Source: Brugia malayi (taxonomy: Eukaryota > Nematoda > Chromadorea > Rhabditida > Onchocercidae). From it: a DNA stretch of 64,000 nucleotides. This document shows positions 10,177-52,263 of the stretch, one piece after another; within the stretch, counting starts at the first letter, position 1, and every line of letters begins with the position of its first letter. Made by a program: the position numbers and the translations under genes. The stretch covers positions 15,806,721 to 15,870,720 of the forward strand of contig NW_025062479.1 of NCBI RefSeq assembly GCF_000002995.4, given 5' to 3'. Below the pieces are notes generated by a model. It was not told the origin of the DNA, did no database searches, and was given only the letters and a program-made list of their open reading frames with translations.

Positions 10177-13036
10177 GTATTAAATATATACCTTTTTCTG
10201 GATTTAAAATTACAGGGACATTTTCGTGGTCAACCGATAAATCTTTAAGCAATGCCGCACTGCAAAAAATAAATAAATAAATTTTACAATTTGATTAGAT
10301 TTCTTAAAGACGAAGTATTGGATTTTTAGAATTTTACGTTGACAAACAAACAAAAAAAAAAGGTTTCGTACCTGATCGTCATTAAATCACAACCAATAAG
10401 ACCTTTGATTTCATCTACGTTACGAAATGATGCTGCCATAACTTCCGTTTTATAGCCATACTTTTTGTAATAATTATAGATTTTTCGAACATTCTAAAGA
10501 TATTTGAAGATTATTCAAAAATCAATTGGTCAGAAAAAAATCACAATAAGGAAAGTTTACATCTTTCTATCTTGATATATTTCATTTCTAAAAGCAAATT
10601 TAACTCAAACTTCAAATTTAACTCAAACAAAATTAGATAATATAAGAAACCTGAACACCAGGATCCGTTTCACGATTATAATCCTTCGAATCTGTATTTT
10701 TTAAATACCAATCACGAATTCGGCCAACAAATGGAGAAATTAGTGTTGCATTCGCTTCGGCACATGCGACAGCTTGATAAATGTTGAATAGTAACGTCAT
10801 ATTACAGTGTACACCGTGCTTACTCTCAAGTACGCTGACATTGAGAAATTTGTTAATATAAGAAATAAATTAAAAAAAAAAAAAAAAAATAGAAATCTGA
10901 TCCAACTGGGATTAGTAATGGGTAAAGGTAGATAGATCTGAATATATTTTCAAAAAACTAAGATGATGCATAAGTCATTCACTAATAAAAAAGCTACCAG
11001 AAATATGAAATATTTGATGAGCAGAATAGATATATTAAATGAAATTCTAAAAGACCTAAAAACCATGTTCAGATATAATCATACAACCGTTTGGAAAATG
11101 TTTTATCTGTCCACTGGAATAGACCAATTAATTGAATTGCACTTAAATAACCAAATAGTCTCGTTAGAGATTGATAGAATTGCTTCTTCTTTTTTTTTTT
11201 AATTGATGATAAATCTGTCTGTCATTATTTAGAATTAGTAAATGAAATGTATAAAATTAATGAAGTCATGAATAATAGTAATACAAATGTTTCTGTTCCT
11301 GCATGTTTGATATAATGAACTAACCGAGCAGCTTGAATGCCTTCCCAAGTTGAGGGTAATTTTATTAACACACGCTCTTTTGTAATTGCTTCTTCTTCGT
11401 ATAGCTTTATAATTGTCAGTGCTTTTGCAATTTGAGCATCTTTATCAAAGGCAAGTCTGAAAGTAGAGAGAATAAAATTCACCAAAAATATGTTTTACGT
11501 TGAAAAAGAATGGAAAATTATGATAAGATTAATTTCACTTAACATCAATTTAAAAGACTGATCACTATTTAGCATTAACGGGAAAGCAGTACTAAGTACT
11601 AAGTAAAAATAAAAATAAAACAACAAAAACTGAACAATATGTAATAGTAACATGAAAACATAAAAAAAAAAGAAAAAAAAAATTTATACCTGGCATCAAC
11701 TTCCGTTGAAACACGTCCAGGAACAACGCTTAATACTTCTTTTCCCATCAAAACCGCTATTTTTTCCACAGCCAAAGCACGCAACTGTAGAAGTTTTGGA
11801 AAAAAAAATCATCGATAAGAATAACTAATTTTGCTATAATCTACTCTTTCAATCATATAGATGAATTTCATGGTCAGAATCTTTTCTAAAAAATTAATAA
11901 AGAAAAGTGTTCAACGCTTTATGCAGTCATATTACATCATCTGAATAAATATTACACAATCGGATGTTCTTACTATTATAAATATATCAAAAGAAAACTA
12001 TGTTATGATGATCTATAAACTTTATAGTTATGTCACGAATTCAGAAAATACCTAAAACTGTTTTAGAAAAGCCATACTTCTTCACGATTTAATGACGAAC
12101 CGAATTTTTTCGCATATGCAATGCCTTCATCCAGAAAACGCTTATAATCATCAAGTTTTGATGCTGCCAATAAAATGGATGGATTTGTTGTAGCATCCAC
12201 GGCACCAACCTGTTTCATTACTGCGAAAAAAGAAATATTGAAATATTATTTTAAAATAAGAATTTATACGAGTGGAACATGATCCTTAAAATATTGGTTT
12301 TGAATCAAAGAAAGAAAAATTTTCTTTTTCTTTAAACCAAAATTATATGGAAATAAGATTTCTGAAATGATAAACTAATGTTCCAGAAAATCTTAATAAA
12401 AGGAGAAACCACTACTTCATCCAGCTCCCTACCATTATTCTATTCCAATTGTACCCTATCTTTTATTCTATTCTGTTCCTATTCTGTCCCGCTCTATCCT
12501 ATTCTATTTCCTGTTTTTCCTATTATTCCTGTTCTGTTCTTATTCTATTCTATTTTCTTCTGTTCTATTCCTATTCCTGTTTCTGTCCTACTCTACCTGA
12601 CTCTTATTCCTATTCTATTCTATTCCCACTATCCCATCCAAGTTCTGTTTTAACTCTTTTTAGTTCCATTCTGTTCTCTTCTGTTTCGTTCTTCCAATTC
12701 TATTCTGTCCTATTCTAATTCTATTCTTTCCTACCCTATTCTATTCTATCTCATTTTTTGTTTTCCCTATTCTATTTCTCTTTTATACAACTTTCAATAT
12801 TCATTTCATTAAATTTCCTTCATTTTATTCTATTATCTCCTAGCCTTGCCTATCTCAATTTTAATTTTTACCTTTCTATCAGAAAGACTAGTATCAGAAA
12901 TTTATAATATCAGAAATTGAAATTAGCGCAGATTACATCCTTTTCTCCAAAAAAAAAGATTTACTTAACCTTTAAAATCGACACAATCTGCGACAACTTT
13001 TGTCGACAATTTCATTTGTTCTAAAACTGATGCCAT
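9857..13036 (-). CDS. Transaldolase, eight exons, 322 residues
   Basis: Pentose phosphate pathway enzyme that moves a dihydroxyacetone unit from sedoheptulose 7-phosphate to glyceraldehyde 3-phosphate through a Schiff base on lysine. Exons, in gene order: 13036-12970, 12220-12078, 11784-11690, 11456-11325, 10834-10651, 10493-10372, 10259-10192, 10014-9857; all phases close. The Schiff-base lysine is K134 in [11 protein letters not shown]. The acid/base residues are D31 in DATTNPS and E98 in [26 protein letters not shown] and VMAASFRN are further family blocks. Length is close to the 337 residues of human TALDO1, so it looks complete and cytosolic. The start codon lies nine bases after a TTTTTCAG acceptor at 13045-13052, suggesting trans-splicing. 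Introns hold a (TA)n tract and a pentamer array. Identification is very safe; exon borders are by eye. Confidence 0.96.
10136..10174. repeat. (AT)n microsatellite in transaldolase intron 7
   Basis: An uninterrupted AT dinucleotide run of about 39 bases lies between exons 7 and 8 of the transaldolase gene, 17 bases from the exon 7 donor. Likely polymorphic in length. Confidence 0.95.
12432..12780. repeat. Degenerate (CTATT)n pentamer array in transaldolase intron 1
   Basis: About 350 bases of period-5 sequence built from CTATT, CTGTT and TATTC variants (plus-strand view). It lies inside the first intron (12221-12969) of transaldolase. Open frames across it are by-products of the repeat. Unit divergence is considerable, so the array looks old. 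Confidence 0.9.
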
Positions 13037-19221: not shown

Positions 19222-22200
19222 ATGAAGCCAACCGATCCTATCCTATCTGCTTTCCATCAAAAACGACAGCAATCTACTCTCTCATGTCAATTATTACAAA
19301 ATTCATTATACAATTTCAAGTCATTCAGTCCTGTAAATTATTCTTTCCGTCTTTTTTTTCTTTTTTTTTTTTTTCTATTTAATTATATCCAGCGAAAAAA
19401 AAAATGAAAGAAAGACTGTAATTTACTTTGTTATTATTGAGTCAATTAATATTATTCTAAGTGATAACATATATGATTAATTCATAGGAAAGGATCAAAA
19501 GCAATAATTATAGTTATCTAACATAAGCTAGCACTAAATTATAAATAAATAAATAAATTTTAATTATAATCCAAGTAAGAAATTGATTAAATTGATTCTT
19601 GTTGTAGCTAACATTTGAAATAATTATAGTAATTATATTGATGTGAATAATTTTTTTTTATAGAAAAAAAGTGACGAAAATTTGAAATCATTACAACATA
19701 TACCCAATGAATCTATCAAATATTGTCAACAGAAATCGAACAAAACAAAATCTTTATTCAAACGTTTTTGTTCTCAATTACAGGTTCAAATAAAAAATAA
19801 CATTTTAAAACTAAAATAGGGAGCTGATTGTTAATTTGTACCTATTAAAACTGACAATTAATTAAATAAAATTGTTTGTTCACTTTTATTTTTATTTTTT
19901 TTTTACAATAACAAATCAAGAAGAAAAATAAGCATTTAAATAGTTTATATATATTTTTATGATAGTATTTAATCTATGATAACTTATCACAATGATGAGA
20001 ATATTATACTGAAAGTATAGGTGGGAACTAATAATTGTAACCTCATTAGTTACAATAAGAAATAAATTTTTATTGCATAAGCTACGGCTATACCACCTTT
20101 TTCTTATTTATTTTTTTCTTTTAAACTCATTAAATTTTTTTATAAAATGATAAGAAATAATAATGTTAACTAATAATTAAATAATTTTACAATTACAGCG
20201 TATCTATAACAAATCCATTGTTCACTCGACATTTCCGGTTTTCATCTTGATAGCTTATTCATTCTTCGGTGGTTTAATTTTTTATTTGATTGAATTTCCC
20301 AATGAACGATTGTTGTTAGATCAGAAGAAATTATACTTTAACTGGGAGGAACATTCCATGCATCAAATTATACTAAATATTGAAGAAGTAATTCGACAAA
20401 TTCGATTCAAATATAGCAATAACCGATTTGAACTTAATGAAAATATTCGAATCTATAAACGTTTTGCATTAAATGGAATCGAAAAGGTTATTTGATTATT
20501 ACTTTATCTTTAAGTTTTTAAGTGATTAATTATTTTTTTGTGCATTGGTAAATATTTATTATTCCGGTGGAACCAATTGTTAAATATTGTTTCAATCATA
20601 TATTGCTTAGAAAAGCAAAGTTAGGGAATAAATATTATAGGCTGTTTATTGGTACGTTCTAAATATGTATCATTTATCGGATCAGGAAAGTTACAAAGCT
20701 AAAATATTACAACCACAATATCCGGAAATTATATGGCTTAATCACTTTAGTAATAATTTTGGTCAAATGTATGCCCTTCGAAATTATACTGAACAGGTAA
20801 TAATACTACAAATGAATAACTTTTACGTCTACCAAATATTGTCAATTTTTTTTAGCACTTTTTGGATTTTAATTAGATAAAGACATGATAATATAAATTT
20901 AACAGGTGATAAGAAGAATTATTTGTACTATCTCAAGGTTATAGAAATTTCTTATCTTATCTAAACTTACTTGTTAAGAGTTGTTTCACAATTGAAAATA
21001 TTTTATTATTCAATAGAATATTATAAACATTTTTCTTATCAATCATATTGCTTTTTTTATCCCTTTTATATCAATTCATATATTCAAATTAAAAGTAGAA
21101 ATAATTATATTTTTATTAACTAATAATCTACTAATGTATATAAAATAGTCAGATCAATGTGCAAATGATTTTGAGAAATGGAAATGGTTTGTTATCATTT
21201 CATGCATAAAAATATACAAAAAATAAATTAGATTTCAAATTTAAATGTTTACCAGTTAAATTTGATAATTAATACCTTTTTAATCACTTTTTACAAGTTT
21301 CCAGCTATCACTAAGATATTGGGAAATTGCGCTAGAAGAGAATGCTAGTCCAATCGTTGTGCGCCGTAAAATGAAAGCTGCATTGTTTCGTTTCAAAACA
21401 TTAACTGGTTTAACTCATCTTTTTACTCCAACTTGGACATTCTGGAATGCAATGTTTTTAGCTGGTAATTATTCTAATGTATTAATAAAATGGTGATAAA
21501 TGATAGAAAAGACAACTTGTGATTATTTTTGTTATAATCAAGTATAATAGATAAATATCTTTTGTATTTTACGAAACACTTTTAGCATACCTTATTAATT
21601 TATCAGTTTATACTTTACTTTATGCTCAGTTTTCATTTTTTCATAGTTTTTTTTTCTCCTTTAATATTAGTTTAATATTTTCACTCATGATTTTCTGAAT
21701 ATTTTAGAAAATCTGGGCTTTTTAGTTTCTCTTTAAAGAACAATTAATAAATAGTCTTAAAAGTGTAATTTTTGAAATAATTATTTAAAAAAAAAGAAAA
21801 AGATTCCCAATTTATTTTCACAAAGAGTGAAAACCATTCAATTTACTGATATGATACGGTGTGATTGTGATATGATATGGTATGATACGATGTAACACGA
21901 TGTGACATAATACATATGGCATGATATAGATATATGATATGATATGACATATGGTATGTTGTGATATGAATGATATGATATGGTGTGATATAATACGATA
22001 TGAAATGATTCGATGTGGTTTGATATCAAAATATTTAGTGACAACATACACAACTATCGGTTATGGTAATATAACAGCTCAGAGTAAACTTGGTAGATTA
22101 GCGGTGATGTTGTATGCAACAATCGGTATACCACTTGTATTAATGATTCTACATAAGCTTGGTCGACAATCATTTCGAGTTTTGGAACGATTTTGGATTC

Positions 22201-24937
22201 AATTCATGAGGTTATTACCATTTCTAATTTTAAAAATTAAAATGTAAAAATTGAAGGTAAGCCAAATCAAATAAAAAATAAATATATCGTAGCACAATAA
22301 TCAATAATACAAGCTAATAACAGATAGTTTTAAGAAACCGAATAAAATGATAAAGAAATTAAATCAAAAAAAGCAAGTAAAATGATAAAAAAATAACTGT
22401 GAAATTATAATTTTTTGTTTCTTTTTTCGAAATATCATTTCTACTAAGGTTATAATTAAACATTTTAAGGGTTATACATAGTTTTGAGTCGGAAATAATT
22501 CATTTTTAACGTATAAGAATATTCATATAAGAATAGCTTAAAATTATTTATTGCTGATTTACTAGTCCATAATAAATTTTGTAATTAGTAATTGATTTAA
22601 CTTTTATCAATGAATAATAAAAAAACGAAATGTTCACATCTAATAATAATATTATTTCAAATAAATGTTTTGAAAATTTAAAAAAGAATTTAAATAAATG
22701 TTTGTAAAACATTTTAAAATATAAATAAATGATAATAGATTGTATGTGCAAACTACTAAAAATCTTATCAATTGATACTAATAACAACACATTGTACTTA
22801 TTATTAGCTATTTTAAAGCATAAATAAAATTTTGCAACTTTCTTCTTCCCTTATTTTCAATTGCAGTTTAATGGAGCATATAGCATGGATATGTTGCGGC
22901 AAATCAATAAAAAAGAAAAATTGGAATTCATTTCATGATGACAATATTCCATTATTATTACCAGTATGCTAATTTGTTCAGTTTGAAAAGTTTTTTTTTT
23001 TTGAAAGTAATTTTACTGTTTTCTACTTACTCCTACTTAATCATCATTTACAAATAACATATTCATATGTTTGCTTATATCCGTTTAAATATCCTTTTTC
23101 GATATTACTTAATCACTTATTTGATCATCCGTCATCCATTTCTCTCTTGTTCATTTGTTTGGTTTTAACGTACGAATAACTCTTCAATAATCATCCTTTT
23201 GTCACATGTTGACTTTTTCTCCAAAAAAAAAAAGAAAAACAAGTAACCTTTGTTTTCATATTTAAATTCTTATATTTTACCTACCATCAATAACTTAGCA
23301 GAAACATTTATTTAGTAATTTATATAACCCAGTTTTCTAACTCTTGGTATTGTTTTTCTCAACAAGCAGAATTACTGGTGTTAATAAAATTCCTTCCATT
23401 TACATCTTTCATTTTTTTGAAATTATTAGTCAATTTTATCCAGCTAATCATAAATGAAAATAGTAATTATTGCGCATAACATGATTTTTTAACTTAATAT
23501 TTATTTTTTTTTATTAAAATTTATTATTCATTTATTCATTCTATTATTATTCTATGAATACATCAAAACTTTTTTAAGATTGGTATTACTATAGGATGGG
23601 TATTCATATGTGCTGCAGTTTTTTTAAAATTCGAAAAAGATTGGGATTACTTCAAAAGTTTCTATTTTTTCTTCTGTTCACTTACTACTATCGGTTACGG
23701 TGAGTTAGTTATGTATACGTATTATTAATGTTATCTAAATTTTATTCATTATTACATATTAATTTTAACTTCTTAAAAAACTTCCACAAGCAAACATTTC
23801 AGGTTATATTTTTTAAAAAGTAGAAAACCGAATTTTTAAAGAATATGTTTTGAACTGGAATTTGCAGAAATTTAACTTAAATTTCAATATAAATTATTAA
23901 AATGTTAAATTTGAAATATTTTTTAGGTGATGTAACACCAACAAATTCGGTTGATATGTTTGTTATATTTGGATTGATAATGATAGGACTTGCATTATTT
24001 AGTATGTGTATCAATGTTCTTCAAATTAAACTCGAATGGTTATTTGAAGAATTGTTGGTGACACTCCTGGAGGAGTACAAACAAAAAGGTGTCCCAGCTG
24101 AAAGAATTAATGTTCCGGTTAAGTAAATTGCCATCTTAATTATTAACTTTCGAGCTTAACAAATGAAAACTACCGGATTAACTCTCAAATTTAATGAAAT
24201 GTTATTTATTATTGAATGGGAAATTGTAAACGATATAAATTGGTATTATCATGAATCATACAAAGTAATCCTTGGAATATATGCAACTACTGTTAATAAC
24301 CAATTTATCATTTTTGTGACGTAAACATTTAGATCACACATAGTCATATCATAAACTTAACAAATATCTCAGATTATAATTTAGGAACAAAATTTTATTG
24401 ATAGAATTTTTAAATAAACAAATGAAATATTTGCTGCATTGAAATAGAAATTTTTTTAAGTAATGTTGCTAAAACCTTTTAACAATTTTTGGAATGATAG
24501 TAGAAAATATCAAATAAGGGCTATATTGTTGTCCGCTTTTTTTTATTTTGCTTTTAAAAATTTTTAATGTTACAATTAACTTTCAGCTACTAAAATAAGA
24601 AAAAAAGAGCGAATAAAAATTAAGTTAATGAAATCGTAGTAATTAATTTTTGCTTAATTTTAGAACAAGATAGATTTTGTTTCTCTGTGGCGTATGTGGC
24701 GTAAACGACGACGTCAACCAAAAATTCAGCGTAAGGATACATTCGCAAGCACCATATTACCACGAATCAAACGTGATCGCCGAGCACTAGTAGAGCATAT
24801 ACGTCATGCACTCTGCATGGTACTTTATCACTTTTTTTTTAACAGGTTTTTAAAACTAAATAATTATCTGAATTCATCACAATGATTTTAAATTATATAT
24901 CACGATTGTGCATGTTGTGATTATGTTTACCAATATG

Positions 24938-27394: not shown

Positions 27395-28464
27395 CAAATT
27401 CCCTTTTTTCTCTCTTCGAATACATAATTATTAAGGAAAAAAAAATAATACAAATGCAATTAGAAAAATTAGATAAAGAAAATCATACTTCAAAAAAGCA
27501 TTTTTGCAAGTAAATATGAATTTCTACAGTTATTCATTTTGATCAAAATTTCGGCCTTAGCGACTTCTTACTATGTAATTCATATGAGAGATGAATGTAA
27601 ATTATACAGGAGATTACAAAAGAGGAAGGAAGAAACAATTTTTGATGAAAAATGAAATAAAGCAAGATATAAAATCAAAATATTGTTCAATTTGATAATA
27701 AAATGATAATAAGCGATGAAATTTAGCTTTTATCATCCACTCATACTGGATGCTTGTCTTTGTGATAAGCATTCATAACTTTCATTTATGTTATTTGTAA
27801 CACATGTCTTGATAATTTTTAAATGTTGGTCAATAAGTAGAGCCGTATTAAATATTAAAAAATATCCGAAAAAAAGAACATTTCATGAATTAATACAATG
27901 TTTAATTTTTTTATTCTTTGGTTTTTCTTTTTTATTTTTTTCTTATTTTCTTTTTTTTCCGGACCATCAGAATTTTGTTAGATTGTTGAAAATTTTTTTG
28001 AACAATTGAGAATTATTTAATTTGATGGAAAAATTTCTTCATATGAATTAGAATTAATTAGTAGAAAAAAAAATTTAATTATTTTACTCGAAATATAATC
28101 ATTCGAACTCCAAAACGGAACGAAAAAAACTGAACTCTACACTCTATCAATTCCTCTTCACATACTATCTCACTTCTCCCATGCTTGTCTGACCGTCTCG
28201 TTCAAAAAAGTCTCATAATGCGGATGTGAATGAAATTTTTGAATTAGAAATTCTGCCGGTAAGAATGGGTGTGAATTGTAGGTGAGTCGGAGTTTTTTTT
28301 TCATTAATGGTCGGTTATTCATCGCAAGCTCTACCGGTTAGTGATTTACTTATATTGTAATGGAGAAGGTGAAAGAAAACAAGTAAATAAATATGGTTGC
28401 TTTTTTATGTGATCTTAAATGTAAAGATACTTTCTGAATGTAAAGATATTGCAGAATTCCAATA
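27395..28464. other. Intergenic between channel and Aurora kinase genes
   Basis: Contains the channel 3' end, with AATAAA at 27656-27661, 262 bases after the stop. A somewhat less AT-rich patch at 28100-28340 lies upstream of the kinase and may be its promoter region. A TATTGCAG acceptor (28447-28454) is ten bases before the kinase start, suggesting spliced-leader addition. Confidence 0.5.
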
Positions 28465-30317
28465 ATGGATTCCATACAATCAGCAAGAAAAAATAATGAT
28501 GCTAGAAAAACTAATACGGACATTCAAAAAGATACTCGTGAATGGTGTCTGAATGACTTCGAAATTGGCCGTCCGTTAGGTCGAGGCAAATTTGGCAGCG
28601 TATATTTGGCACGAGAAATTGAATCGAAATTTCTAGTTGCTCTTAAAGTATTATATAAATCACAAATGAGATCACATAATATGAAGCGTCAGTTGCGGCG
28701 TGAAATCGAAAACCAATATCACTTGAGGTGAACATTTCAAGTTGATATTCTTATATGGTACCAGCTGGTAAGCATGTTTGGTTTATTGTTTAGGTTAAGG
28801 CCACTGATTAATTTAAATTCTAATCATTTCGTTCTTGTTGTTTTAACTTAAAACTACGAAAAAAATTTATCTCATGCTAGATCGAAATTCATTATCATTT
28901 TATCATTTCAGACATCCAAATATTTCACGCTTGTATGGATATTTCCACGATAGCGATCGTGTTTATATAGTTTTGGAGTTTGCACAGAAGGGAAATCTTT
29001 TCAGCCATCTTCAGAAGGTAACATAAGGATGCAGTTTATCTATATTTTAAATAGCGAAAACTTTACATCATAGCTTCTTAAAAACAAGTTACATATAACT
29101 TTGCATCGGCTCTTCTGAATGTAAAATTTCAATTTAGATGAAAAAGTTTCCACCACAATTAGCTGCCAAATATATGTACCAACTAGCATCTGCGATGGAG
29201 TACTGTCATCAGAAGAACGTGTTACATCGAGATTTGAAGCCTGAAAATGTTCTTGTTAGTAAAACTGGTGATTTGAAAATATCAGATTTCGGATGGTCGG
29301 TGCATGAACCATCATCAAGGTTTGTTTATTACTCACTGCTAAGTTTGATGATCAGGGATTTTTCGACTACAATTACACGCTGATAATACACTCTTATGTT
29401 CATAATTCAGTGGATTACTACATTATAATAAATATTACAGTAGTCACTGTATTTTAAATCCTTTCAGAAGGACTACAGTTTGCGGCACTTTGGATTATAT
29501 AGCACCGGAAATGATTCCGAACGGACAATATGATGCCACGGTTGATAACTGGTCTTTAGGCGTCATGTTATATGAATTTTTAGTTGGGAAACCTGCATTT
29601 GAGGCGAAGGTATTCATGTCCTGAATTATTCTTTTGATAGAATAATTTTCTTGCTTGATTAACCATCGTCACTGCAAGTGATCAGCAGCTTGAAATTATC
29701 CTGAGCACGTGGTTCTTTCATCCAGTTTACCTTTCTTATTTTTCTAATGGCAGACTCTTTTAGTTCGGTCAGTATAGAATTTAGCTTTGCTCCGCACATC
29801 ATATTTTATGTCACAAAATATTTTAGTCATATAACGATACGTATGAAAATATCCGCAATTGCAATTACACTTTTCCATCTCATGTGCCGGATGGTGCAAA
29901 GGATCTTATATCAAAAGTTCGTTTATATTTCATTTTTTAAATCATAATTCTTTATATTTAGCCTTAATTTAGGTTTAGTTCCATTTATGTAAATGTAAGA
30001 GCTCACTTTACTTTTTCTTTATTTTATTTATTTTTTCTTCGTTTGCTGAAGATATCACCTTAACTGAAATATTCTTTAGAACAAAAATAAAAATTATTTA
30101 TGTTTTATTTCACCGTTAGAATTGCATAGTTAATAATGTTTTATGAAGTTCACGTAATATACGCTTCGATCAAGGTAAGGTATCCTTTTCATAAATTCCG
30201 ATTCGGAAAGGTTTTGATTATCCTATTTAATTTCAGCTTCTGCAAAAAGATCCAGCTAAACGCCTGTCGTTGAAGGGTGTTATCAACCACCCATGGATAC
30301 AGGAAATGATTAGATGA
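28465..30317 (+). CDS. Aurora-type serine/threonine kinase, six exons, 287 residues
   Basis: Mitotic kinase of the Aurora family (C. elegans AIR-1/AIR-2), acting on centrosomes or, with INCENP, on chromosomes and midzone. Exons: 28465-28727, 28912-29017, 29138-29319, 29468-29609, 29827-29916, 30237-30317; phases close. Seen: glycine loop GRGKFGSVY (39-47), catalytic lysine K61 in VALK paired with E80, HRDLKPEN (153-160), and DFGWSVH (173-179), whose W is an Aurora hallmark. The activation segment is RRTTVCGT with T187 at the activating phosphothreonine position, followed by LDYIAPEM and [20 protein letters not shown]. The end is HPWIQEMI. It has only about 30 residues before the kinase domain, as in short Aurora B/AIR-2 types, and reads APE where Auroras usually have PPE. 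Aurora class is safe; A versus B is not. Confidence 0.95.
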
Positions 30318-38385: not shown

Positions 38386-41068
38386 TCAGTTTGTCATACT
38401 CTCCGCTTTTGTTGGACTATCCAGTTTCAGTGTTTGCATGGCCACCATCATGATCGGATCTGTTAAAGGTGGTTGTGTTGCTTGTGTTGCTTTAAACTGT
38501 AGGAGCTGTTGACGAACCTGGAACTTGTCAATCGATAAAGCCTGATAAACAGTAGAACTCATAAGTGCTGCTGAATACAAAGTTGTCACAGTTACAGAAT
38601 TATATAAGGTTACATTTCCATTCTCATCGTATCATTTATCGCAATAAAATACATTTGAAATCGAATGCCTCAAGGTACACTTCATATTTCGGAAAAAAAA
38701 AATCATTTAAAATCTTTTTTTGTTAAAGAAGAAAATGAGAATTATCCAGTTATTGAAATGAAATGCTTTATCGTTCCTCTAGATACTTAAAAAACGAAAA
38801 AAAAAAAAAAAAAAAACCTTCATGTTGATAAAACCAAGAACATTTTTGCCTTCTCCTACTAGTGGAATGTACACCAATGTTCCATTATCTATTTTGGTCG
38901 GAATCTGCAAAAGCGCGAAGATGATTTCTTCTACTTTTGCTAACTTGAAGTTGTACGGATCAACCTTTTATTCTGCGACGGCTCATCCGTTCAATACTTA
39001 CCGTTGTTGTGGACAGTAACAGAGAAATTTCCAATGTTCTGAAACGTACTACACAACGTATTGCGAATAAACATAAAGAAAAGTAGTAGTAACCAGTAAT
39101 GAAGAAGTAACGGGGAACGAATATTTAATAAATACAGAAGAACGACTTGCTGAATGGAAAAGGATGAAACATGTAGCTTGTATCACGCAAATATTGGCAA
39201 ATACAGATGATAGGGAAGCATAAAATTATAAGAAGCCAATAAACATCATCCCGGTAAATGCAAATATCGACCTAAACACTAAACACAAGTATTCACCTAA
39301 GTATATACTCGTAAATAAGAAGAAAAAAACAAAAATACCTTAATTATTTGTCCATTATGATTTTTCGCCCATTCTAACATCTTCTCCTTGTCGCAACCCG
39401 TAGCAAAGATATTATCCCGTTCGTACGTATGTGCAAGCAATGCATTACCTGTTTCCAGAAGTTTCGTGCGAAGTTGAGGATTTTGTACAAATTTGTGTAC
39501 TATTGCATGATGTAGCAGCACTGGACCCTGAGTACGCTTCCATTCTTCCACCTGAAAAATCCCTTTTAGAAAAAAAAAAAAAAAAAAAACCGGATTGAAT
39601 TGTTTGCGAGTGAAATGAAATGAAAATTTTGAAAAAGATTTTTGAGTTTTCAAATATTCGCTGACTAACCTGAAGCTACGATTCTGAGACTTTATTAAAA
39701 ACAAAAGCAAACCTTATTAAAATTCCAGATTTAAACATTCACCAGATGTGTTTTATACAGATAAAATTTAATGAAATAGAAAATCAGTGCAAAAGCACTA
39801 TTAATTATACCTTCTCTATTGAAACGTTCGCTGAACGCAACAATTTTTTTGTGTGAACTTTAATCAAACCAGCATTAGATATATTACGAAGTTGTGCAGC
39901 AAAACGTGCACCACCTAATGTATACAATTTACAAGCTTGATAATAATGTTCCACGCTCGGATACTCATGTCCATCCACAGTTAGCGCAACCTGTTGTGGG
40001 AATTATCAAAATTAAGAGTGATACTTTTCATTACAATACAAAAATGACTTCCTTCGAATATCCTGATTAGTGCCAGAATAGAAACCTAGGATATAGGGTA
40101 TGAATGCTTTGCTTTTTGATTTTTCGAATGAAATTCATGAGATATAATAAGAACGTAATCAAAAGCAAAATTGATGCTTAATATCATAGTCGACAAAACG
40201 CCTATTCAGCTTAATATAATTGGTACGAATGATATAAAATAGTGAAATTCATGAATTATACTACAAAAGTAGTTAATGCATTAAAAGAAAACAGCTATAT
40301 AAAACCGACGGGAAATAAATTTGAGAGGAAATGTTGACGACCGCTAAAACAAATGACTTCATCGGCATCTACTTTGTAATCATCGGTATCCACATCGATT
40401 GGGACATCTTCAACCTAAAATTGTGAAATTTAGGAAATTTGAAATAGTCGTGGAATTGAAATATATTTTGGTTAATTGGAATCAGTTGATCACTTGAGAT
40501 ATTGGTACTGTTTCTGCGCTTTTCCAACAATAATAAGCAGAACATAACCTAAGCAAAAACTTACTCAAGCTTACTTCCACAATGAGAAGAGGTTTTTACA
40601 ATATTCTTAAATAAAAAACACATTGAGAACCTACAGGAGGTGGAGTAAGCGGTTTTGGCGGTGAACGTGGCTCTATTTCTTTCCTTCCACCCTCAAAACT
40701 AGTATACTGTCGGCCACCTGCTTTATCCGTGGTAAAATCGATATTCTTTCCGCGATAAACTCCCTGAAACAATAATTTACAGTAACATATAGAAAGATTA
40801 ATAAGTTTTTTGTCGATGGTCCTTAGAAATACCCCTAAGAAACCATACTCTTAGTAGAATTCAATACAACAAGTACACATATTTGAACAAAAAGTACACA
40901 GTTCCAATCCAAATAACGAAATTTTAGCAGCTTACTCACATAGTAGTAAGATCGGGGTGACCACGGTTGCGTAAGTGGTGCCAGTCCAGATGTATCGCCT
41001 TGCCTATGACGTCGTGCAGCCTTTTCTCGTGCAATCTCCATCGCTTTAATGGATGCAGGCGTTGACAT
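38386..41068 (-). CDS. NADAR (YbiA-type) N-glycosidase domain protein, seven exons, 332 residues
   Basis: Exons in gene order: 41068-40940, 40763-40635, 40414-40310, 39990-39811, 39551-39339, 38904-38818, 38541-38386; every junction closes in phase 0. Residues 1-86 are a basic, low-complexity leader with a proline-rich PRSPPKPLTPP. An acidic stretch follows, then a complete NADAR domain (about 105-290): VICFSGRQHFLSNLFP, VDGHEYPSVEHYYQA, KFVQNPQLRTKLLETG, HTYERDNIFATG and GKNVLGFINMKA. E135, W185 and D227 align with the catalytic E48, W89 and D129 of E. coli YbiA. Family enzymes cleave N-glycosidic bonds of riboflavin intermediates or remove ADP-ribose from guanine. Animals do not make riboflavin, so a nucleotide or ADP-ribose substrate is more likely here (inference). 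No signal peptide is seen. The ATG follows a TTTTAG acceptor by 13 bases. The domain call is strong; substrate and partners are unknown. Confidence 0.9.
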
Positions 41069-42270
41069 CTCCACACAATCTCTAAAACATCAGTTATGAG
41101 AAAAACAAGTTCAAAAATTTGTAACCTCATATAAATTTACGACATAACAAACATGAAATTCAAATGGATTTTGTAAGGCTTAATAATATTGAATACTTTT
41201 TAGCCAGTCCATAAATCGTACTCTGGGATGGTTCCAAATAGATTTCTAACATGGCAAGCTAAAAATAATGTGTGGATATGAAATACACCAGAGCCCAATA
41301 AACATATTTCCATCCGTTTTTAAGGACTATGGATTACAATTTTAAATTTACTGATGTGAAATAAAAGTGTCACGAAAATATATAAATACGTGACATATTA
41401 CCACATAGACACTCAACATCTAATAAGACTCATTCAGGTTCCTTATTTATTAGGACTGTTTGAGAGCACAAAATTTAAGTTAAAAATTTAATACCTATTC
41501 TACAAAAACAAATTGTTAGAAATAAAGAACTATAAAAAAAAAAAAATCTGTGACCTGACCTGAACTCTCTAGGTAAAAATTATTTTATTAAAGAATTAGG
41601 TGAAAAATATGTTTCAGGATTTGAATGCTTTTTTTTCTGCTCAAAGTTGATTTAATAATTACAAAACAGTAAAAATCTAAGACTACCTAAATATCTTACC
41701 AAAATATCATATATACTTAAAACTTGAAACAAAGTATCCAAGATAATGATAGAAAATTTAGAACTCCATCAAAAAAACTAGAAACAGTAAAATAACCTTA
41801 AAATCAAATCACAAAAACAAAATATTGGTCAGATCCAGACGTTTATGGGTTATTCATATGCATTATAAATATCGTGAGAATGCTTTATTTGATTAATCCA
41901 TGAATTAGATTCAAAAATTAATTTCATCAATCCATGAATCAGATTTGCAAAAATTCAATTCTTCTCAAATCCCTACCATAAATTCACACATCAAGAAATT
42001 TTACATTACATTCAGTGAAGCTAATTTCACGAATGGCTAATTAACCGAAAATACCACAGTAGTCAGGGCCCCGACCTATGACTCCTACAATAGAGACCGT
42101 TTCCTAGCCACAAGACACCACCAACCAACCGTATCATCTCTCGTATATATAACCAAATACTATCGTTGCATGAATATGTCTCAAATATAGCAGCACTTTT
42201 CGATAGCATATATCATTTGTTTGAATGTCCTATGGTACTTTTATGTTTTGTATTATTGTGCTCATACTCT

Positions 42271-49696: not shown

Positions 49697-52263
49697 AATT
49701 AATTATCATTTTCAGTATGATAATAAGAATGTAACATCCTACTACATAAATAAAAATAGTTTGAAATGAATTTTAAAATAATTTGTTAACACATATTTAA
49801 GCAACTAATTACCGTTTAACTAGTTATTATTAAAACTAAAATTTAACTCCTCAACAACTTCATGTATTATCACCTCATTTTTTTTTTTTTTTCAGTTTAC
49901 AATCCAATTCTTTCTTTCCGAAAAAGATTTATACTTTTGCTTTAGAAGCATATATATATACAACAATTATCATTCTAGAAACCAGATCCAGAAATTACGT
50001 TTCTTATAATTTTTTCTATCATATCTGTGTTATTTTATATTTACATGATAATGTATACTCCTTTTTTCCTTCGCTTTTTTCTTTTTCCTTTTAAAGATAC
50101 AAGCCAATATATTCAAATCAATCGTCATTTGCTATTTCTTTTCTTTCTTTTTCAGATGAAAAAATATGAAATGGCTACAAATATTTATAATGCAAATTGA
50201 GGATAAATGTAGGAGAAAAAAAAAGAAAAAGGTTATATATTGACAGAAGATATTATGAGGATCAAATAATAATGGTATATATTACCGCGGAGAATTGATA
50301 AAAGCGGGACAATAATGATTCATCATCCATCTATGGAATGTTATTAAGGTAAAAGCCGAAAAAGTTTTTCCTTTTTTTTTTTTCCATCTCGTTTACGATG
50401 CTTTCAAAGTGTATGTACAAAAATGCTAATATTACAAATGTAATTTCAACTATCTGCTTGATATTTTTTTTTTTTTTTTTAAAAAAAAAGCAGATATGGA
50501 AAAATTTTTTTCTTTACAAATTCCTTCTCTTTCACTTTTTCTTTCTCTCTCTCTCTCTCTTTTTCCCTCCTTTTTCTTATTCTTGTAAATTCTTTTTTTC
50601 CTCGCTTTTATAACCCAAATTTTTTATTTTAAAAAAAAAATTACAAAATAAAACTGGGAAAAACTCTTGCAAACCAGAAAAACATGACTTAATAAGTTTA
50701 ATTTAATATATTGCATATACCTAAATAAATAATATTCTTGGTTGCTTGCTTTAAAATAACTAGAATAACTTGAGAATTCCAATTCGAACCTTTTTAGTGA
50801 AGTAATGATAATAATTATATTATTTAGGAAGATATAAATGGATAAAATATCCGAAATATCTTCGACTTTAAAAAACCTTTTAAGAAGGAAAGGAGAAATA
50901 AGAAAATATTTAGTGTACATATATACATAATATAAATAATCATTAATTCCATTATTTATTAAAAACAGACACTAGACACATTTGAAATAAAAATAATTAT
51001 ATAATTAATACAGATTATAATTAATTAATTCAAACACTATCAATTATTTTTTATATTTTAAATTGTACAATTTATAATCATACCGTGGATATGGTTTATT
51101 ATACCAATTATATATACAAAGATAATACATTATATCACATTGCACATTTACTGTATCTAACAACATCACTTTGATGGCAAGAAATAAAAGTTGCATTTAA
51201 GAAAAGAAATTATTAGTTTATCTCAACTATTTTTTCTTAAATTACAATTACACCATTATTTTATTTAAATTGTACAAATTATAATCACACCGTACGATAT
51301 ATTATACCAACCATACGTACTACGATAATACATCACATTATACTGTACAGTTTACCATATCTAACATTATCGTTCTGATAACAATAAATAAAACTTGAAT
51401 GAAGAAAATAAATTATTAGTTTATCCCAGCTATTCTTTCTCAAATTTCGGTTAAACTGTTTTAGAAGATCATTATCTTTTTTGATATGATAAAACATTTT
51501 GTTAATTCGCTCATCAATATTTGTTTATTCATTAAGCAATAATTAGTAATAGTTAATAAAACTTCTACCCAATAATACAAGAAATGGTAATAGTCACCAT
51601 TTTTTTTTCCTTAAATTAATTGATTTTTTATATCATGCTTTATCATGATCGGATCGATTTCGACTGTTTTGATACAGATTCTTCTGTTCTTTTGTATATT
51701 TTTGTAAATTATTTTAAATGGGAAGCTTAAACAATCTAAAATTTCTTTTTGCTTGAATTTAAGAATATAAATTAATAATTTATAGTAAAACTTTTAAAAA
51801 AAAAATGCTGAATAAAATCTAAAAGAAATACAATAATCCGGAAAATAGGATATTTACTATCATTTGTCATCATCTCATGATTCACATGATCTAATTTTTA
51901 AAAAATCATATAATACAATTAACCAACAGTGAATTCAAATTTTGACATTTTTAAAAAGAAAAAAGGATCAGTACTTAATGTTTCTTTAAATTCTGGCAAA
52001 AAAATAAGTTTCGGATTGTTTAAATTGGTCAAAATAACTATTTTAAGTACAAGCCAATATCACCACCGCCTTTTCCATTTAATATTTCCCTACAAGCAAA
52101 AGTATTTTCGAATTTTTTCACTCTTTTCAAGTAACTGATAGCGACTAAAGTGCTCAAAGGAGAAAAAAAAAAACGAAAGAAACCTCTAACAAAAGTAAAT
52201 TATCTTTTCCAAAAACGTCACGTTTTCGATTGAAATAAGCGAAGGAACAAAAATTTTTATCGT

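Follow-up and report, generated by a model that had tools for sequence, protein, structure and literature searches.

NADAR proteins were the only hydrolases in a published panel to reverse base ADP-ribosylation of guanosine in RNA, and they are reported to be missing from vertebrates (PMC11833690, PMC11543638). For the NADAR of the oomycete Phytophthora nicotianae (PDB 8bau), E43 and E125 are described as coordinating the distal ribose of ADP-ribose and K50 its pyrophosphate (PMC11543638). Four residues are reported as critical in E. coli YbiA (PDB 2b3w), and from those mutated in that study we infer them to be a Glu, a Trp, an Asp, and a second Trp three positions after the Asp (PMC9303266). 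The gp30.3 protein of phage T4 belongs to the His type of NADARs; it acts as a hydrolase of guanosine-ADP-ribose both on DNA (PMC11125620) and, less well than C7 NADAR, on RNA (PMC11833690). Here, we analyse a NADAR gene of the filarial nematode Brugia malayi, which lies on the minus strand at positions 41068-38386 of a 64,000-nucleotide stretch of contig NW_025062479.1 (positions 15,806,721 to 15,870,720; hereafter the window, to which our coordinates refer unless a contig is named). An earlier note on this DNA had presented the gene as a novelty in animals, a claim that falls because NADARs are published from many invertebrate groups (PMC11125620), including nematodes, where the nuclear NADAR protein SNA-3 of C. 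elegans is essential and acts in spliced leader 1 (SL1) trans-splicing (PMC9303266). The window gene is not the first animal NADAR; what appears new is a family-specific change in the predicted active site.

The NADAR identity proposed in that note was borne out by the Pfam profile PF08719, which matches residues 113-250 of the 332-aa window protein with 70.7 bits (cut-off 35.1, E 2.3e-19) as its single NADAR stretch, and a close orthologue has a YbiA-like fold. A protein search with the window protein returned 37 matches, comprising 35 family members and 2 non-members (P0036 and P0037), and all 35 members match PF08719 (E<=0.1). Named nematodes account for 28 of the members (filarial worms and their relatives, Toxocara, Syphacia, Gnathostoma, Ditylenchus, Meloidogyne, Globodera, Diploscapter, Pristionchus, and Caenorhabditis); the remaining seven rows are P0008, P0012, P0013, P0015, P0021, P0022, and P0033. 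Partial or mis-joined gene models are found among the records (e.g., P0005, P0006, P0009, and P0026). A family profile search, also with 37 matches, added four members (P0039-P0042), alongside fragments (P0043-P0045) and other proteins (P0046-P0049); members and their fragments extend down to E 3.1e-10, and the first other proteins appear at E 1.9e-6. In one source the Toxocara member carries the name F44E2.8, other records being unnamed or "uncharacterized". The C. elegans counterpart is therefore likely F44E2.8, by this annotation, the F44E2.8 sequence itself being absent from the matches. The Toxocara canis record (P0007) is 75% identical to the window protein across 99% of the query. It has the same leader motif, carries His and Phe at the two replaced positions described below, and shows no important difference. 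Contamination is very unlikely because the gene sits on a 24.9-Mb contig and other filarial worms possess orthologues, in agreement with the earlier view of it as a resident multi-exon gene. This is a genuine, intact-looking, nematode-wide NADAR gene.

To describe the active site, we took residue roles from the P. nicotianae NADAR-ADP-ribose crystal (PMC11543638) and counted residues over the 35-row family alignment, as follows (coordinates, strand, codon, and family count):

39949..39951, minus strand: E135 (P. nicotianae E43), Glu in 35 of 35
39928..39930, minus strand: K142 (K50, phosphate contact), Lys in 35 of 35
39540..39542, minus strand: W185 (W89), Trp in 35 of 35
39429..39431, minus strand: H222 at the catalytic-Glu position (E125), His in 22, Gln in 13, and Glu in 0 of 35
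39414..39416, minus strand: D227 (D130), Asp in 33 and Glu in 2 of 35
39405..39407, minus strand: F230 at the W133 position, Phe in 21, Tyr in 14, and Trp in 0 of 35

The lysine at the K75 position (K165 here) is likewise invariant (35/35), and the R79 position (K169) holds Lys in 25 rows and Arg in 10. E135, W185, and D227 thus stand where the earlier note had placed them, but its description of the site as complete, with these three as the full list of catalytic positions, does not hold: the Glu expected at position 222 in both YbiA and P. nicotianae NADAR, and the Trp expected at 230, are replaced in all 35 members. With the four extra members, the catalytic-Glu position holds His in 25 and Gln in 14 of 39. 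Mapping His and Gln onto the family tree requires four changes, two of which are forced by well-supported branches. Among 24 non-family control rows, Glu is present in 11 and Trp in 15, with His in one (T4 gp30.3) and Gln in none. YbiA, which has no leader, keeps both the Glu and the Trp, whereas the nematode family has His/Gln and Phe/Tyr; with Glu in 0/35 it lacks the distinguishing catalytic residue of the YbiA subfamily, and His222 also differs from the Asp of the BC4488/DarT1-linked NADAR type. Measured against the four critical YbiA residues, the window protein would keep three. We also searched the genome exon by exon (86.8 Mb, 139 contigs), a procedure that intron-split genes can escape. 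The genome has two further NADAR domains that look intact, at C139:6.23 Mb and C138:5.76 Mb (pieced together by eye), and both have Glu and Trp. The replacement thus characterises the family and not the species. Judged from these alignments, the active site is altered and not complete. We found no description of such a Glu/Trp replacement in a nematode NADAR family within the open-licence PMC literature.

What might a site rebuilt in this way do? The protein likely either cleaves ADP-ribose from nucleic acid by another chemistry or recognises it without cleavage. We favour a His-type hydrolase of nucleic-acid ADP-ribose, to which we assign a probability of roughly 0.45. The protein would bind ADP-ribose on guanine bases of RNA or DNA, with E135 and K142 holding the distal ribose and the pyrophosphate in the manner of P. 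nicotianae E43 and K50, and W185 and D227 completing the pocket. His222 would stand in for the catalytic Glu, as in T4 gp30.3, whose His at that position aligns with H222, and would drive hydrolysis. The 86-residue leader, an addition relative to P. nicotianae NADAR, could assist: it is basic and proline-rich, as the earlier note had said (15 K/R, 8 D/E, and 11 P), and would help nucleic-acid binding. That description had missed its conserved motifs, an M[SA]TP start in 26/39 members and DF[TS]xD...F in 23/39.

Several observations weigh against this proposal. First, Gln occupies the catalytic position in 5 of 6 Caenorhabditis rows and in all four named Meloidogyne/Globodera rows, and Gln, present in 13/35 members overall, is poorly suited to acid/base catalysis and so difficult to reconcile with it. 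At the functionally corresponding Asp171 of E. coli C7 NADAR, even exchange for a close residue is reported to have abolished rescue (PMC11543638). Second, besides E125 and W133, which are His and Phe in the window protein, the P. nicotianae contacts Y84, D86, and R93 are not kept in the family alignment. Third, the resemblance to gp30.3 is not specific to the family. PF08010 gives the window protein 14 bits against a cut-off of 36; at E<=0.1 it matches 13/35 members (best 1.5e-4) and also 3/10 controls, namely YbiA and two phage NADARs (best 2.8e-3). Alignments with T4 gp30.3 place the D227 and F230 columns inside or beside a gap. The PHROG of T4 matches two members (1.7e-5 and 6.3e-5), but another PHROG matches two members far better (6.7e-22 and 3.8e-22), both comparisons having been run without controls. 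Fourth, exon-by-exon searches, which can miss split genes, found no DarT (E<=1) and no Tpt1/KptA match in the genome.

The main rival follows from the same observations, since Gln in 13/35 members and the non-specific likeness to gp30.3 both leave room for a protein that has kept its ADP-ribose pocket and lost hydrolysis. Such a reader would recognise ADP-ribosylated nucleic acid or protein and recruit factors through its leader. The catalytic Glu is gone from every member, His and Gln seem exchangeable given their four changes on the tree, and the ribose- and phosphate-binding residues are retained along with the conserved leader motifs. Yet published assays show hydrolysis by T4 gp30.3, itself of the His type (PMC11125620, PMC11833690), and a pure reader might not require both D227 and W185, which are retained. 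We therefore regard loss of hydrolysis as a serious but tentative alternative to the His-type hydrolase.

To place the family among other NADARs, we used a domain tree of 39 rows, built with 15 of the 40 family rows then available. A branch splits these 15 from 9 SNA-3 rows with support 92/86, just below the mark of the tool, and deep branches are weak. T4 gp30.3 lies on the same side as the family, as do two OTU-NADAR rows. This placement speaks for descent from phage gp30.3, as do the PF08010 matches of 13/35 members, the matches to the PHROG of T4, and an hhalign comparison of the family with gp30.3 (probability 76.6, E 2.1e-5). Those three tree rows are, however, long branches with weak support (42/12), and 3/10 controls match PF08010 as well, and we do not accept such descent.

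We found two PARP loci and a single Macro locus in the genome. No obvious guanine writer came out of the PARP, Macro, DarT, and Tpt1/KptA searches, which were run exon by exon and can miss split genes. A broader proposal, an endogenous nematode system of nucleic-acid ADP-ribosylation with this family as its dedicated eraser or reader, strikes us as rather unlikely. In such a system the rebuilt site (Glu to His/Gln, Trp to Phe/Tyr) and a gained N-terminal recruitment motif would make the family an animal counterpart of gp30.3, acting on guanosine-ADP-ribose of RNA.

The earlier note had reasoned away from riboflavin intermediates because nematodes are not known to make riboflavin. For filariae this is not decisive, as the title of PMC3518464 ascribes riboflavin biosynthesis to the Wolbachia of Brugia malayi. 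A damage-control N-glycosidase acting on small metabolites, whether riboflavin intermediates from diet or Wolbachia or another damaged nucleotide, would resemble YbiA-like enzymes of bacteria and plants, and the YbiA-like fold and the three of four critical residues kept (inferred from PMC9303266) are consistent with it. Against it, none of the 35 members has the fourth of these, the Trp, or the Glu of the YbiA family. Moreover, the family is not confined to hosts of Wolbachia: members are also present in Loa, Setaria, and Toxocara, which are not known to carry any, so the conclusion still leans against riboflavin. We consider damage control very improbable and a riboflavin role unlikely, and we agree with the earlier note that nucleic-acid ADP-ribose is the better guess at a substrate.

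A nematode NADAR already described is SNA-3 (C23G10.8), whose orthologue we located in the genome at C135:7705011-7710348 on the plus strand. A search with its pieces, joined by eye, brings up full-length relatives (identity up to 94%), of which P0056 and P0088 bear the name C23G10.8 and the best, P0050, has three NADAR stretches. SNA-3 resembles our family in being nematode-wide and in lacking the usual Glu, in 8/9 of its domain rows; it differs in its length of ~900 aa, its three NADAR stretches, its own locus, and its separate domain groups, the window protein having one domain. The separate locus and contig, the three-domain architecture, and the opposite sides of the tree rule out that the window gene is SNA-3. 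It could instead be a second nematode NADAR in SL1 trans-splicing or small nuclear ribonucleoprotein metabolism, catalytic or not, as a co-factor of SNA-3-type RNA processing. The nematode-wide spread of both families, the published role of SNA-3 in SL1 trans-splicing (PMC9303266), and the missing Glu in both would fit. Against it stand the differences in locus and architecture, the branch that separates F44E2.8-type from SNA-3 rows, and the main text of the SNA-3 paper, which does not mention F44E2.8 (PMC9303266); we hold a co-factor role to be improbable. The SNA-3 orthologue ends in DESELSDGEILSD, and ELSDGEI is common to three SNA-3 proteins (P0050, P0056, and P0092). We take this motif to resemble an ARS2-binding motif, which would presumably fit the published link between SNA-3 and the cap-binding complex (CBC)-ARS2.

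The gene comprises seven exons with GT/AG ends, each a multiple of three in length. The join in the earlier note (41068-40940, 40763-40635, 40414-40310, 39990-39811, 39551-39339, 38904-38818, and 38541-38386) gives the 332-aa product, which is contained at 100% identity in a Brugia timori database record of 355 aa (P0001). This record runs 23 aa further upstream, where an upstream open reading frame exists. The gene, its exons, and their splice ends thus stand, with one likely correction at the start of exon 7:

41069..41081, minus strand: stretch upstream of exon 1, probable 5' untranslated, behind acceptor ttttag|
40940..41068, minus strand: exon 1, start codon and N-terminal leader (MSTPASIKAM...SYYY)
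40635..40763, minus strand: exon 2, leader with the DFTxD...YTSF motif and a proline-rich stretch
40310..40414, minus strand: exon 3, acidic linker and beginning of the NADAR domain (Pfam match from residue 113)
39811..39990, minus strand: exon 4, NADAR core with E135, K142, K165, and K169
39339..39551, minus strand: exon 5, NADAR core with W185, H222, D227, and F230; PF08719 match in the genome search
38990..39038, minus strand: possible alternative last exon, NIGNFSVTVHNNGKY then stop (open reading frame), which would end an isoform before exon 6
38818..38904, minus strand: exon 6, C-terminal NADAR portion (GEGKNVLGFINMK)
38518..38541, minus strand: eight codons ALSIDKFQ, in the earlier model and the B. 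timori record, likely intronic
38386..38517, minus strand: exon 7 with corrected start, VRQQLL... to stop; acceptor ttccag|GTTCGT

Dirofilaria, Setaria, Thelazia, and Toxocara proteins join the last two exons as ...FINMK|VR..., without ALSIDKFQ, so the likeliest start of exon 7 is 38517, 24 nt further downstream, for a protein of 324 aa. A truncated isoform through an alternative last exon near 39038 is possible because the Loa "variant" record P0006 terminates in NTGNFSVTLHKNGKY. As an internal exon, the 37-nt stretch 39038-39002 has good splice sites yet breaks the frame, and it was rejected. The acceptor before exon 1 could serve as an SL1 trans-splice site. Elsewhere in the window lie neighbouring genes with transaldolase exons (10636-11494, minus strand, PF00923), an ion-channel exon (21948-22244, plus strand, PF07885), and protein-kinase exons (28444-29380, plus strand, PF00069), as well as a tandem repeat of 1.9 copies of a 203-base unit (51057-51446).

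Other NADARs came to light in the genome, the matches, and the literature. At C138:5757706-5758573 (minus strand), the NADAR domain with Glu and Trp kept is followed by open stretches rich in Ser/Arg, and at C139:19993758-19994317 (plus strand) a degenerate NADAR-like gene, read by eye and with weak profile matches (E 0.019 and 0.051), precedes an RGG-rich stretch; similar matches lie on C31. The non-member P0036 combines NADAR with PF03291 in precomputed annotation. PF03291 is an mRNA cap methyltransferase family, and NADAR may thus have a tie to cap chemistry. In C. tropicalis, the chromosome III interval of a Medea (a selfish toxin-antidote element) is reported to carry extra duplicates homologous to F44E2.8 and F40F8.11, both NADAR (PMC7853720). 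A published table lists F44E2.8 under "neuronal development", predicted from expression. The infection-response reporter gene irg-1 (C. elegans C07G3.2) is listed as DUF1768, the old name of NADAR (PMC3527274), and no paper treating irg-1 and NADAR together was found within the open-licence PMC literature. A NADAR enzyme switched on by pathogens could act in defence against ADP-ribosylation.

A small, conserved, one-domain animal NADAR with a defined site change makes two questions testable in worms: what role animal NADARs play, and whether animals have reversible base ADP-ribosylation at all. For filarial parasites, it means that they carry a gene of a family reported to be missing from vertebrates (PMC11833690, PMC11543638).
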